From positions 1 through 24,098 of the IMG/VR virus record IMGVR_UViG_3300028025_003222: a stretch of 24,098 nucleotides of DNA. The stretch is one strand, 5' to 3'. This document shows positions 19,010-24,088 of this stretch, piece after piece (position 1 is the stretch's first letter; every line of letters begins with the position of its first letter). The notes under the pieces were generated by a model. The model had not been told where the DNA came from. It searched no databases and saw only the letters and a program-made list of their open reading frames with translations. This DNA comes from a virus. Both the position numbers and the translations under genes were made by a program.

Positions 19010-19462
19010 ATGACAAATCTTATGAAAGATTTTTTCGGTGCCGATTTCGGCCGCATTCAACCATTCACAGTAGGTTTTGATGAGACATTAGAACTTATGC
19101 GTGAAGCAGCAACGATAGCTGCAAAATCCGTATCGTATCCTCCATACAACATCAAACAAGTAAAAGAAAACAAGTACGTCATTGAAATGGCTGTTGCTGG
19201 TTTTTCCAAGTCTGATATTGAAATGACTTTGGAGGGAAATAAACTCGTAATCAAAGCTGCATCAAAAGATGAAGATAACGGTGATTACCTATACCGAGGT
19301 ATTGCCAACCGTGCATTTGAACGAACCTTTACTCTCGCAGATAAAGTAGAAATTAAAGATGCAGAAATGATTAATGGTATGCTTAAAGTTTGGCTAGAAA
19401 ACATGGTCAAGGTTCAAGACGCCGTTAAAAAAATTACCATCAAGGAAAAAGAAGATAAATGA
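19010..19462 (+). CDS. Small heat shock protein Hsp20 (IbpA-like)
   Basis: Encodes 150 residues with a central alpha-crystallin domain (about 45-135). It shows YNIKQVKENKYVIEMAVAGF, the strand KLVIKA, the IANRAFERTFTLADKVEI segment typical of the IbpA/Hsp20 class, and MINGMLKVWLE near the end. Such chaperones hold unfolding proteins in oligomers, without ATP. Hsp20 is a common auxiliary gene of T4-like environmental phages, probably helping virion assembly or stress survival of the infected cell. The C-terminal I-x-I-type anchor appears as ITIKE. Strong ribosome binding site; the stop overlaps the next start (ATGA). Confidence 0.96.
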   Translation: MTNLMKDFFGADFGRIQPFTVGFDETLELMREAATIAAKSVSYPPYNIKQVKENKYVIEMAVAGFSKSDIEMTLEGNKLVIKAASKDEDNGDYLYRGIANRAFERTFTLADKVEIKDAEMINGMLKVWLENMVKVQDAVKKITIKEKEDK

Positions 19463-19957: not shown

Positions 19958-20407
19958 ATGTCAGTTACAATTAAAAACCTTGAGTCTGCATTGGCTGGAG
20001 AAAGTCAAGCACACATCAAATATCGTTATTTTGCTAAGATTGCTCGTGAAGAAGGTTATGAAGATGTTGCAAAACACTTTGAACACACAGCAGATCAAGA
20101 GATTCTACATGCATGGGGTCATCTTGAGTTGTTGGTTGGTAAACCATCTACTAAGGAATGCTTAGAACTTGCTATTGAAGGTGAGACATATGAGTTTACT
20201 ACAATGTATCCAAATATGAAATCAGAAGCAGAAGTTGAAGGTAATCAAGAAGCTGTTCGTGAAGCATCACATCAAATTGCCGAAAGTCAAACACATGCAG
20301 AAGAATTCCGTGCAGTGCTTGCTAAGGCAGAGAAACGTTTTGCTGCATTGGCTAAAGTAGAAAAGCGTCATGCGGAAGCATATCAACAAAAATTAGGAGA
20401 ACTATAA
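19958..20407 (+). CDS. Rubrerythrin, ferritin-like diiron domain only
   Basis: Encodes 149 residues. Rubrerythrins reduce hydrogen peroxide at a diiron site in a four-helix bundle. ALAGESQAHIKYRYFAKIAR (11-30, E15), ADQEILHAWGHLELL (E48-x-x-H51) and EGETYEFTTMYP (E76-x-x-E79) match the classic ligand pattern; a late E135-x-x-H138 in VEKRHAEAY may complete it, though spacing in the second half differs from the Desulfovibrio protein. The usual C-terminal rubredoxin domain is missing here and is encoded by the next gene. Good ribosome binding site (TTAGGAG). Confidence 0.93.
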   Translation: MSVTIKNLESALAGESQAHIKYRYFAKIAREEGYEDVAKHFEHTADQEILHAWGHLELLVGKPSTKECLELAIEGETYEFTTMYPNMKSEAEVEGNQEAVREASHQIAESQTHAEEFRAVLAKAEKRFAALAKVEKRHAEAYQQKLGEL

Positions 20408-21066: not shown

Positions 21067-21579
21067 ATGATTATTCGTGTGGTTAACTGTCCGGACAAAG
21101 ATTTTAAGCCCTACGTTGAAAGAGCTGCCCAATTCTACGCCAAGGAATTGATACCCAACACACGAATTAGAAATCATTGTACAACTGAAATTAAGTTTTG
21201 TACCAAAATAAATGAATATGGTTTTGCAAGTATTGAAGATTACAATACAAGAAAAGAACCTCGTAAATTCCTAATAGAAATACATCCACACATTGGATCC
21301 AGAAGAATACTGGAAACATTGGCCCACGAAATGGTTCATGTGAAACAATACATTGATGGTGAAACCAATGATGAATTGACTAGATGGAGAGGTAAGAGAG
21401 TTGATCCCGACAAGATTGATTATTGGATCCAACCATGGGAAATAGATGCTTACGGCCGTGAACCAGGATTACTTACAAAGTTTGCTGTGTCTGAACATTT
21501 ATGGGAAACATTTACCGATTTTATCGATCCTTCTGGTCCAATAAATTATAATCCAATTGCATGGAAAGTTAGCACATGA
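21067..21579 (+). CDS. Zinc metallopeptidase, SprT-like
   Basis: Encodes 170 residues. ETLAHEMVHVKQYI carries the HExxH zinc motif (H87-E88-M-V-H91), and E125 in PWEIDAYG, 34 residues on, is the likely third ligand of a gluzincin. The surrounding pattern (ILETLAHEMVH..DELTRWRGKR..IDYWIQPWEIDAYGRE) is that of a phage family common in marine T4-like viruses. No signal peptide is present, so it acts in the cytoplasm or in virions. The substrate is unknown. Its ribosome binding site lies in a hairpin. The stop overlaps the next start (ATGA). Confidence 0.85.
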   Translation: MIIRVVNCPDKDFKPYVERAAQFYAKELIPNTRIRNHCTTEIKFCTKINEYGFASIEDYNTRKEPRKFLIEIHPHIGSRRILETLAHEMVHVKQYIDGETNDELTRWRGKRVDPDKIDYWIQPWEIDAYGREPGLLTKFAVSEHLWETFTDFIDPSGPINYNPIAWKVST

Positions 21580-22129: not shown

Positions 22130-22158
22130 TTGCCAAGGCTCAAAGTTTACTATATAAT
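22130..22158 (+). promoter_or_regulatory. Sigma70 promoter for the ncRNA candidate
   Basis: TTGCCA (22130-22135; 5 of 6) and TATAAT (22153-22158) are separated by 17 bp. No gene follows for 800 bases, only a structured region ending in a terminator. Confidence 0.85.
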
Positions 22159-22164
22159 ACAAAC

Positions 22165-22363
22165 ATATTTAATTTTTAGAAAGAAAAAAGTGTCTCTCAT
22201 ATCCCATAAACCCTTTACGTTGCAGTCAGAGTATCGCACAATTAATTGTGGTGATAGCTCATGGGCGCCGGCCGGGTTTTGTGTGAAGATGGAGAACTAA
22301 AACAAAAGTTCTAAAAAAGACTCCAAACACAAGACCCTAGACCTAAAAAATCTAGGGTTTTTT
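22165..22363 (+). ncRNA. Candidate stand-alone non-coding RNA, about 200 nt
   Basis: The stretch has its own promoter and terminator but no open frame longer than about 17 codons. A strong hairpin joins GAGTATC (22229-22235) to GATA-G-CTC (22253-22260) through an inner CACAA/TTGTG stem. Downstream TTGTGT (22279-22284) pairs with ACACAA (22327-22332), enclosing GGAG/CTCC (22291-22294 with 22321-22324) and an AGAACT/AGTTCT-type inner stem. Between them lies an unusually GC-rich patch (GGGCGCCGGCCGGG, 22263-22276) in an AT-rich phage. No known RNA family is recognised. Confidence 0.65.
22335..22363 (+). terminator. Intrinsic terminator of the ncRNA unit
   Basis: CCCTAGA (22335-22341) pairs perfectly with TCTAGGG (22351-22357), followed by six T residues. 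The 9-base loop is A-rich. Confidence 0.92.
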
Positions 22364-22390: not shown

Positions 22391-22419
22391 TTGCCTAGGC
22401 ATAAGACTTCGCATATAAT
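22391..22419 (+). promoter_or_regulatory. Sigma70 promoter for the tRNA cluster
   Basis: TTGCCT (22391-22396; 4 of 6) and TATAAT (22414-22419) are 17 bp apart. The start near 22426 coincides with the first base of a boxA-like leader. Confidence 0.82.
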
Positions 22420-22425
22420 ACACAT

Positions 22426-22451
22426 TGTTCTTTAAAAATTTGTTGTAGTTT
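22426..22451 (+). promoter_or_regulatory. BoxA-like leader, copy 1
   Basis: A 26-base sequence beginning TGTTCTTTAAAAATT is repeated exactly at 23361-23386, each time between a promoter and a tRNA. It resembles the rRNA operon boxA (about TGCTCTTTAACAA), the RNA site bound by NusB and NusE for antitermination. It is probably borrowed from a host rRNA leader. Confidence 0.7.
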
Positions 22452-22453
22452 AT

Positions 22454-22527
22454 TGGGGTATAGCATAGTGGTAGTGCTGCGGACTTTGAATCCGTAGGTC
22501 CTTGTTCGATTCAAGGTACCCCAGCCA
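22454..22527 (+). tRNA. tRNA-Gln (UUG)
   Basis: Acceptor TGGGGTA/TACCCCA with the U1-A72 pair typical of glutamine tRNAs, anticodon loop CTTTGAA, T-loop TTCGATT, discriminator G and encoded CCA. Confidence 0.95.
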
Positions 22528-22561
22528 TATAAAAACATACTATTAGTGTGTTTCTATATGG
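22525..22561 (+). repeat. tRNA-flanking hairpin, copy 1
   Basis: CCATATA pairs with TATATGG, and the inner AAACATAC with GTGTGTTT (one G-U pair), so the CCA end of tRNA-Gln lies inside the stem. A sister structure follows tRNA-Glu. It may be a processing site. Confidence 0.7.
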
Positions 22562-22566
22562 TTAAT

Positions 22567-22656
22567 GGAAGTGTGGTCGAGTCTGGTTTATGGCAGCAGT
22601 CTTGAAAACTGCCGATCCGCAAGGGTCCGAGAGTTCGAATCTCTCCACTTCCACCA
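22567..22656 (+). tRNA. tRNA-Ser (UGA)
   Basis: Class II tRNA: acceptor GGAAGTG/CACTTCC, anticodon stem GCAGT/ACTGC with loop CTTGAAA, long variable arm, T-loop TTCGAAT, encoded CCA. Confidence 0.94.
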
Positions 22657-22662
22657 AAATTC

Positions 22663-22752
22663 GGAGAGTGGGCAGGATGGTAATGCAGCGGATTGCTAAT
22701 CCGTAGATTTACGAAAGTAGGTCACAGGGTTCGACTCCCTGACTCTCCACCA
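22663..22752 (+). tRNA. tRNA-Ser (GCU)
   Basis: Class II tRNA: acceptor GGAGAGT/ACTCTCC, anticodon stem GCGGA/TCCGT with loop TTGCTAA, variable arm with GAAA loop, T-loop TTCGACT, encoded CCA. Confidence 0.93.
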
Positions 22753-22757
22753 ATTTA

Positions 22758-22849
22758 TGGACTTGATGTGTCAATTGCCTGATGCTGGCATGAAATTCCC
22801 TAATAGCATAGGGGAAAGAAGTGGGTTAGATTCCCATTGTTGTCCACCA
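22758..22849 (+). ncRNA. tRNA-like element of unknown identity
   Basis: It starts 5 bases after tRNA-Ser and ends in GTCC-A-CCA. The outer stem is only TGGAC/GTCCA. A T-arm-like hairpin (GTGGG/CCCAT) has loop TTAGATT in place of TTCGATT, and a TTCCCTA/TAGGGGAA hairpin stands where a variable arm would be. No 7-base anticodon loop with a proper stem can be drawn. It may be a decayed tRNA or a small stable RNA like the non-tRNA species of the T4 tRNA cluster. Confidence 0.4.
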
Positions 22850-22857
22850 GTTTTTAT

Positions 22858-22949
22858 GCCAGCGAGACTTGGTAGTCAGAGAGGTCTTATACACCTTTTA
22901 GCGCCAGATTAGCGTTCTTGAGAGAGTTCGATCCTCTCCGCTGGTACCA
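22858..22949 (+). tRNA. Atypical class II tRNA, anticodon UAU by position
   Basis: Acceptor GCCAGCG/CGCTGGT (with a G1-U72 wobble), T-arm GAGAG/CTCTC with canonical loop TTCGATC, discriminator A and CCA. The D-arm is a GACT/AGTC stem with only a 4-base TGGT loop. The anticodon stem GAGGT/ACCTT holds loop CTTATAC, so bases 34-36 read UAU (Ile, AUA codons). The 24-base variable arm with CGC/GCG stem is unlike any normal Ile tRNA. Charging identity is open. Confidence 0.6.
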
Positions 22950-22957
22950 AATGAAAG

Positions 22958-23203
22958 ATGAATATGTGGAATATTAAAATTGAAAATGGAATGATATTAA
23001 ATGCAAGTCCAACTTTGGATGATGCAATGAAGTTTGCTAAGAGTTATAACAAGTTTGTAACAATCACCGATGGCACTACAGAGATTGTAGGTAAGTTTGG
23101 TGTTGATGCAGTAGAAGAAAAAGTTTTACCAGATGGTGAAACATACGATTGGACCATGCGGCGTGATGAAACACACCGTGGTTCACGTAGAAAATTAGTG
23201 TAG
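22958..23203 (+). CDS. Small protein of unknown function within the tRNA cluster
   Basis: Encodes 81 residues, starting MNMWNIKIENGMILNASPTL; a second ATG two codons on is equally possible. The protein looks like a compact alpha/beta domain (a strand WNIKIENGMI, a helix LDDAMKFAKSYN, a strand FVTITDGTTEIVGKFGVDAV) with a basic tail (MRRDETHRGSRRKLV). Composition and codon use resemble nearby genes, so I take it as real, although the ribosome binding site is weak. Its TAG stop overlaps the first 4 bases of tRNA-Cys. No family recognised. Confidence 0.65.
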   Translation: MNMWNIKIENGMILNASPTLDDAMKFAKSYNKFVTITDGTTEIVGKFGVDAVEEKVLPDGETYDWTMRRDETHRGSRRKLV

Positions 23204-23275
23204 GTGTGACCCGAAAGGCTAGGGAACGGATTGCAACCCCGTTTTATGCAGGTTCGATTCCTGTCACCTACTCCA
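23200..23275 (+). tRNA. tRNA-Cys (GCA)
   Basis: Acceptor GTAGGTG/CACCTAC, anticodon loop TTGCAAC (GCA), T-loop TTCGATT, CCA. The discriminator is U, the main identity base of cysteine tRNAs. One A-C mismatch closes the anticodon stem at the loop side. Confidence 0.9.
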
Positions 23276-23280
23276 AACAC

Positions 23281-23296
23281 GTTGTAGAAATACAAC
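23281..23296 (+). repeat. GNRA-loop hairpin after tRNA-Cys
   Basis: GTTGTA and TACAAC form a perfect 6-bp stem with a GAAA tetraloop, 5 bases after the tRNA. No T-run follows, so it is more likely a 3' processing or stabilising hairpin than a terminator. Confidence 0.5.
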
Positions 23297-23303
23297 AGAC
23301 TGG

Positions 23304-23332
23304 TTGACAGAGATTCATGGTTGTGTTATACT
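23304..23332 (+). promoter_or_regulatory. Sigma70 promoter for the second tRNA group
   Basis: TTGACA (23304-23309) and TATACT (23327-23332; 5 of 6), with the 17-bp spacer seen at all other promoters here. Start near 23339, about 20 bases before the second boxA-like leader. Confidence 0.85.
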
Positions 23333-23360
23333 TCATCTATGAATTGAGAAATCAATCAAA

Positions 23361-23386
23361 TGTTCTTTAAAAATTTGTTGTAGTTT
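23361..23386 (+). promoter_or_regulatory. BoxA-like leader, copy 2
   Basis: An exact 26-base copy of the sequence at 22426-22451, again directly before a tRNA (Glu). Confidence 0.7.
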
Positions 23387-23389
23387 TTT

Positions 23390-23464
23390 GCACCTATCGT
23401 CTATCGGTTAGGACGCTGCCCTTTCAAGGCGGAAAGAGGAGTTCGATTCTCCTTAGGTGTACCA
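23390..23464 (+). tRNA. tRNA-Glu (UUC)
   Basis: Acceptor GCACCTA/TAGGTGT with a G1-U72 wobble, anticodon loop CTTTCAA, T-loop TTCGATT, discriminator A and CCA. The D-arm and anticodon stem (TCGTCTA, GCCCTTTCAAGGC) closely follow bacterial Glu tRNAs. Confidence 0.94.
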
Positions 23465-23559
23465 TATAAAAACACATTATCGTATGAAGCTGTAGCGACA
23501 GTAGTCGTTGGGTGGTCGGCAAATAGTCCGCTAACTCAATATAGTGTGTTCCTATATGG
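23462..23559 (+). repeat. tRNA-flanking hairpin, copy 2, with inserted loop
   Basis: CCATATA/TATATGG and AACACATTAT/ATAGTGTGTT repeat the stem found after tRNA-Gln. Here about 60 bases (23479-23539) fill the loop and themselves fold into short stems such as CTGT/ACAG and CGAC/GTCG. No coding potential is seen. Confidence 0.6.
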
Positions 23560-23565
23560 TAATTT

Positions 23566-23640
23566 GGGGGTATAACTTAACGGCTAAAGTAGTAGGCTTT
23601 TAACCTATTAATCAGAGTTCGATTCTCTGTGCCCCTACCA
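23566..23640 (+). tRNA. tRNA-Lys (UUU)
   Basis: Acceptor GGGGGTA/TGCCCCT with a G1-U72 wobble, anticodon stem GTAGG/CCTAT with loop CTTTTAA, T-loop TTCGATT, discriminator A and CCA. Confidence 0.93.
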
Positions 23641-23649
23641 AAAAATCAT

Positions 23650-23734
23650 GGAGACACGGCAAAGTGGGAGAGTTGCGGCAGACTGTAAATCTGTTCTTTC
23701 GGGTGAGTAGGTTCGAATCTTACTGTCTCCACCA
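23650..23734 (+). tRNA. tRNA-Tyr (GUA)
   Basis: Class II tRNA: acceptor GGAGACA/TGTCTCC, anticodon stem GCAGA/TCTGT with loop CTGTAAA, variable arm with TTTCGGG, T-loop TTCGAAT, discriminator A and CCA. Confidence 0.95.
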
Positions 23735-23930
23735 AATCCCGTTACTATTTTCGTAAAAATAGCGTTTGATTAGCGATAGAGATCCGGTGGCAGAAAACCG
23801 TTAGCGAGAGAAATACTCAGGCTCTGATAGGCAGATTCCTAACTGCACACAGACGTTAGAATAAAATGGATGGACAGAGTAACTGCTCAATTAAGGGCTG
23901 GCGTGGAACCCAGTAGCTTATACTAATTTT
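23735..23930 (+). other. Unassigned structured stretch between tRNA-Tyr and tRNA-Asp
   Basis: No gene or standard tRNA is found. A perfect hairpin CTATTTT-CGTA-AAAATAG lies at about 23750-23767, followed by possible CGGT/ACCG, GCAG/CTGC and CTGG/CCAG stems. The region is probably part of the tRNA precursor, or an unrecognised small RNA. Confidence 0.4.
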
Positions 23931-24005
23931 GGTCTCAAAGTGTTCACGGACGCACGTATGCCTGTCACGCATAAAGAAGGGGATCGTTACCCCTTGGGAC
24001 CGCCA
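23931..24005 (+). tRNA. tRNA-Asp (GUC) with unusual T-loop
   Basis: All stems have canonical length: acceptor GGTCTCA/TGGGACC, D-arm GTGT/GCAC, anticodon stem TATGC/GCATA with loop CTGTCAC, T-stem AGGGG/CCCCT. Discriminator G suits aspartate; CCA is encoded. The T-loop reads ATCGTTA, so positions 54 and 58 are A and U instead of the near-universal U and A. Confidence 0.8.
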
Positions 24006-24013
24006 GATTTTAT

Positions 24014-24088
24014 TCCTCAGTAGCTCAGCGGTAGAGCAAACGGCTGTTAACCGTTCGGTCATTGGTTCGATCCCAGTCTGAGGAGCCA
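24014..24088 (+). tRNA. tRNA-Asn (GUU)
   Basis: Acceptor TCCTCAG/CTGAGGA, D-arm GTAGCTCAGCGGTAGAGC, anticodon stem AACGG/CCGTT with loop CTGTTAA, T-loop TTCGATC, discriminator G and CCA. Very close in pattern to bacterial Asn tRNAs. Confidence 0.96.

Follow-up and report, generated by a model that had tools for sequence, protein, structure and literature searches.

A candidate transcription attenuator ahead of a phage tRNA array, with a leader peptide that contains nearly every amino acid

Proposed Mechanism

The unit that precedes the tRNA genes of a 24,098-base virus record (IMG/VR IMGVR_UViG_3300028025_003222, positions 1 to 24,098; the whole stretch is called the window here) is probably a ribosome-mediated transcription attenuator that leads the phage tRNA operon and senses a shortage of any charged tRNA. 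The analysis was computational throughout. The leader holds a conserved ORF whose peptide samples about 20 amino acids, its 2:3 and 3:4 pairings covary, and it is linked to a tRNA array. Translation, stalling, read-through and the triggering signal are predicted steps. In the proposed mechanism, a ribosome would translate a leader ORF of 30–44 residues holding every, or nearly every, amino acid. Undelayed, it would cover region 2 when it reached the stop codon, leaving region 3 free, so that the 3:4 terminator would form before the tRNA genes. Were one or another charged tRNA in short supply, the ribosome would stall upstream of region 2, pairing of 2:3 would block the terminator, and RNA polymerase would continue into the tRNA array, allowing the phage to make its own tRNAs. 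One short peptide would in this way act as a sampler of all tRNAs, and the signal would be depletion of host tRNAs, for example by tRNA-cutting defences.

Layout of the Locus

T4-like structural and replication genes are encoded in the window. The parts of the leader and of the tRNA region are as follows.

22130–22158, + strand: leader promoter, TTGCCA-17-TATAAT, 11 of 12 consensus matches; TATAAT kept in most homologues
22190–22300, + strand: leader ORF, GTG start, 36 amino acids, VSLISHKPFTLQSEYRTINCGDSSWAPAGFCVKMEN; TAA stop at 22298–22300
22205–22213, + strand: region 1, CATAAACCC, candidate partner of region 2; folds, with a weak swap test
22229–22260, + strand: core hairpin within the leader ORF, GAGTATC..GATAGCTC; conserved hairpin with frozen codons
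22274–22284, + strand: region 2, GGGTTTTGTGT, 3′ part of the ORF and putative antiterminator strand; covarying pairing with region 3
22327–22337, + strand: region 3, ACACAAGACCC, putative antiterminator partner overlapping the 5′ arm of the terminator; covarying pairing with region 2
22331–22363, + strand: intrinsic terminator (3:4), AAGACCCTAGA...TCTAGGGTTTT at 22331–22361, then a U tract; −13.0 kcal/mol
22391–22419, + strand: second promoter, TTGCCT-17-TATAAT, 5′ of the tRNAs; 10 of 12 consensus matches
22426–22450, + strand: boxA-like leader, GTTCTTTAAAAATTTG..., found in many related loci
22454–24088, + strand: tRNA array (Gln, Ser, Ser, Ile, Cys, Glu, Lys, Tyr, Asp, Asn), called by ARAGORN/Rfam

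An earlier note on this DNA had described a promoter with a 17-bp spacer and a terminator enclosing a stand-alone unit. Both signals were recovered at the positions listed; the unit itself did not prove to stand alone, being tied to the tRNA array, and most likely constitutes the leader of the tRNA operon. In relatives, the array extends past the point at which it ends in the window. Some further elements of the region were recorded. The boxA-like element is a 25-nt sequence, GTTCTTTAAAAATTTGTTGTAGTTT, repeated identically at 23361–23385; both copies lie after promoters and before blocks of tRNAs, and the element resembles the leaders that direct antitermination in bacterial rRNA operons. Between called tRNAs, positions 22757–22850 are tRNA-like with a TCCACCA end and were called by neither ARAGORN nor Rfam, and an 81-amino acid ORF within the array (22958–23203) has no PHROGs match. 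Farther upstream lie a rubrerythrin/ferritin-like protein (19958–20407; Pfam 6e-17), close to an Hsp20 gene (19010–19462), and a conserved 170-amino acid protein with an HExxH-like motif (21067–21579), which adjoins the leader in these phages and has a weak, below cut-off similarity to SprT/M91 peptidases.

Homologues and Coding Evidence

The 170-amino acid neighbour protein was used as the query to collect 80 IMG/VR loci. In about 50 of these the leader unit was found by nhmmer directly 3′ of the neighbour genes, and further contigs were added by two DNA-pattern scans. Automated searching of IMG/VR yielded 85 distinct homologous units encoding 74 distinct peptides of 30–44 residues; 48 homologues were checked by hand and aligned, and clade tests were carried out on four clades, A–D. 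No convincing relative of the unit was found in the named-phage collection, nor did the leader peptide match PHROGs or Pfam. When Rfam covariance models were run on the window, only tRNA reached gathering scores, with other families falling far below theirs.

The earlier note had seen no credible gene in this unit, a claim with which the ORF at 22190–22300 is at odds. Its frame is open in every aligned homologue (48/48), and gaps in the nucleotide alignments inside clades A–D are of 3, 6 or 9 nt only; lengths vary between clades with the frame kept. Start codons are either ATG, mostly 6–9 nt 3′ of the −10 box and hence at or near the predicted transcription start, or ATG, GTG or TTG after a Shine–Dalgarno-like site. 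Only in the leader ORF frame did BLOSUM scores exceed those of column shuffles, with p 0.03 in both larger clades; the p values of this codon-aware test are modest because codons are frozen at the nucleotide level too: Tyr TAT in 48/48, Arg CGC in 35/35, Glu GAG in 33/33 and Asp GAT in 36/36. Most leader coding sequences also fold better than synonymous redraws. Taken with the open frame, the start signals and the frozen codons, this fold makes the leader RNA appear to be translated and structured at once, and its translation is very likely, since the conserved ORF has either a site resembling a ribosome-binding site or an ATG where the transcript is predicted to begin. The patch of G and C at 22263–22276 to which the earlier note had drawn attention is indeed unique in the window, but it comprises merely the codons for W-A-P-A-G and is not conserved.

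A conserved frame with its own promoter and terminator, together with a conserved EYRT...SW core, could also be expected of a real short early protein, such as a host-takeover peptide, for which the RNA pairing would be secondary. We regard this as unlikely, since codons such as TAT and CGC stay frozen while residues change, the set of amino acids rather than their sequence is conserved, the end of the ORF covaries with the terminator arm, and the peptide lacks database matches.

Alternative Helices

The leader RNA of the window folds better than its dinucleotide shuffles (z −3.9). The nested complementary arms that had been proposed for this unit held up on comparison: the core hairpin at 22229–22260 is retained in homologues with altered pairs (CGC..GCG versus CAC..GTG), and region 2 pairs with region 3. 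In all homologues, region 2 pairs with the terminator's 5′ arm at a mean of −20 kcal; relatives do so with other letters, for example GGGTCTTATGT/ACATAAGACCC in L015, GGGGTTGTGGA/TCCACAACCCC in L061 and GGGTTAGGTGA/TCACCAAACCC in L121. A partner-swap test was employed on 38 representatives, in which native 2:3 pairs averaged −19.2 kcal and swapped pairs −14.8 kcal (z −8.9, p 5e-5); the effect was also seen within clades (z −7.4 in clade B and −2.7 in clade A/D). The same test gave z −10 for the 3:4 terminator. The 1:2 helix folds in many homologues, with a weak result in the swap test (p 0.016–0.075; z −2.2 belongs to p 0.016). An alignment of the 2:3 strands whose register had been chosen by eye was kept out of the evidence. 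The earlier note had staked its reading beforehand on covariation among homologues, and compensatory changes were found.

Because 2:3 takes in part of the terminator's 5′ arm and covaries, its formation excludes that of the terminator, as in trp-type attenuators. Folding of modelled nascent RNA was consistent with such a switch: with a ribosome footprint stalled upstream, the probability of 2:3 was 0.91, and with the footprint at the stop codon it was 0.26, a pattern with which 71 of 73 units agreed. The window is itself a weaker example, with a 2:3 probability of 0.63 when the ribosome is at the stop codon. Points against this reading are that 2:3 is also predicted with no ribosome on the modelled nascent RNA (0.82), while support for 1:2 is weak, and that the terminator is frequently the favoured structure at equilibrium, which means that the switch has to work kinetically. 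Judged from these comparisons of sequence, the covarying helices are very likely those that compete with one another in a transcription attenuator rather than the fold of a free small RNA.

The proposal of the earlier note, a dedicated non-coding regulatory RNA, thus survives in part. A structured RNA running from promoter to terminator, with a strong fold, a conserved core hairpin and compensatory change, is what it predicted and what was found; the ORF, however, is very likely translated, and the helices are of the attenuator type. Indels in multiples of three within clades, an open frame with start signals in all homologues, the tie to tRNA arrays and a covarying helix that takes in the terminator arm all speak against a purely non-coding RNA, which we consider the least probable of the alternatives weighed here.

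Amino Acid Content of the Leader Peptide

The leader peptide of the window fits all 20 amino acids into 36 residues, counting the GTG start as Met (p 0.001 versus protein windows). Across 24 representatives, the mean number of distinct amino acids was 19.4, compared with 15.7 in windows of the same length from phage proteins, and among the 74 distinct peptides all 20 amino acids are present in 43 and 19 in a further 20. Shuffling residues within the columns of the alignment of distinct peptides gave a mean of 17.7, and the five other frames of the leader DNA gave 15.1–16.8. The real peptides exceeded column permutations at p 0.0002 in clade B and likewise in clade A+D. The permutation tests carry no phylogeny correction, and shared ancestry is controlled only in part by these comparisons. 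An example of compensation is provided by L026, where R and H have been swapped between two positions and both are retained. The exceptions are clade C peptides, which contain 16–18 amino acids and are without Ala and Gly, some of them also without Gln or Ile.

Upstream of region 2, where a stall would be effective, homologues sample a mean of 18.4 amino acids, and the codons there form a broad set with no run of any one codon. Val, and often Gly, are present only inside or beside region 2, positions at which a stalled ribosome would not make region 2 available. Sensing of each amino acid by the leader is suggested by the composition of the peptide. An attenuator could instead read general translation speed or ribosome availability, or a single frozen codon (Tyr UAU), with the coverage of 20 residues a by-product; the invariance of UAU (48/48) and the inability of stalls inside region 2 to act for Val and Gly would suit such a device. 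Its probability appears low to us, much as for the early protein, because neither column permutations nor the other frames nor protein windows reach this coverage, which is seen again in an unrelated leader from vibriophages (below).

Linkage to tRNA Genes

For the comparison of tRNA counts, only loci with at least 3 kb after the neighbour gene were included. The median number of tRNAs in these 3 kb was 11 with the leader and 2 without it, and at least seven tRNAs were found in 22 of 23 leader loci versus 2 of 16 leaderless loci (Fisher 1.1e-7). No credible alternative leader was found in the loci without one. Between the terminator and the first tRNA, 11 of 48 loci have no promoter match; in the remaining loci, of which the window is one, another promoter match lies between the terminator and the tRNAs, and in many a boxA-like leader as well. 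Read-through is therefore not the sole source of tRNA transcripts in most loci, and the switch may add to a basal tRNA supply. A match between the tRNAs that a given cluster carries and its leader's codons was also considered; it was hinted at in clade C, where L033 has gained both a Gln codon and tRNA-Gln, and was contradicted by L040.

Relation to Known Systems

The trp, his, leu and ilv attenuators of enteric bacteria consist of a short leader ORF, alternative helices 1:2, 2:3 and 3:4, and an intrinsic terminator, and the operon downstream is functionally related to the compound sensed; ilv leaders are multivalent, covering three amino acids. The phage leader resembles them in its short ORF, overlapping alternative helices (2:3 and 3:4, with 1:2 a candidate), intrinsic terminator and related downstream genes. 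It differs in sampling nearly all 20 amino acids rather than carrying runs of a single control codon, in being phage-borne and followed by tRNA genes instead of biosynthesis genes, in often having an ATG at the predicted transcription start, and in matching no Rfam leader family. T-box riboswitches control a terminator in response to uncharged tRNA, features that the phage leader would share; they bind one tRNA directly and have no ORF, whereas the phage leader has an ORF and no Rfam match. No other attenuator known to us has a leader peptide that covers close to the full set of 20 amino acids.

The reason for which phages encode tRNAs is a matter of long-standing debate. If the proposed mechanism is true, phage tRNAs would be produced as needed, at times of charged tRNA scarcity, which would fit counter-defence over codon usage alone, and the leader would have a broader range than any attenuator of which we are aware. 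Phage tRNAs have been put forward as a counter-defence against tRNA-cutting immunity, replacing the tRNAs that are cut (PMC10264068 and PMC11555353), and one section of PMC11555353 concerns a strong promoter for tRNA-Tyr. Leaning on this published work, we suggest that the leader may serve this purpose. The leader switch itself is not described in PMC10264068, going by its terms, or in the abstract and section headings of PMC11555353, and no report of such a leader was found in the literature searched, the coverage of which leaves out most subscription journals.

A Similar Leader in Vibriophages

Four tRNA-rich cultured phages were scanned for similar leaders. KVP40 has a 37-amino acid ORF with 19 amino acids and a Shine–Dalgarno-like site, followed by a terminator and then a tRNA-Pro array; in the same scan, no such leader was found at the tRNA arrays of DLP6, Aeh1 and XacN1. 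Leaders of 37–38 amino acids with 18–20 different amino acids, followed by a terminator and, where annotated, next by tRNA, are found in the vibriophages KVP40, nt-1, F86 and K567. KVP40-type leaders in relatives at only about 53% identity still contain 19 amino acids, and that of PVA8 contains 20. The vibriophage sequence could not be aligned with the leader family of the window, and its 2:3 helix is weaker (−9 to −12), drawing on no single conserved segment. Given this less clear antiterminator and the scanning of several phages, convergence with the leader family of the window is treated as suggestive. On balance, we lean toward the view that at least two unrelated phage leader lineages have evolved a universal aminoacyl-tRNA sensor, in which loss of any tRNA (e.g. 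to host anticodon nucleases) would open the attenuator and turn on the phage tRNAs. In the KVP40 record (NC_005083, 178766–178930), the leader ORF is unannotated, and a hypothetical protein is annotated over it on the opposite strand.
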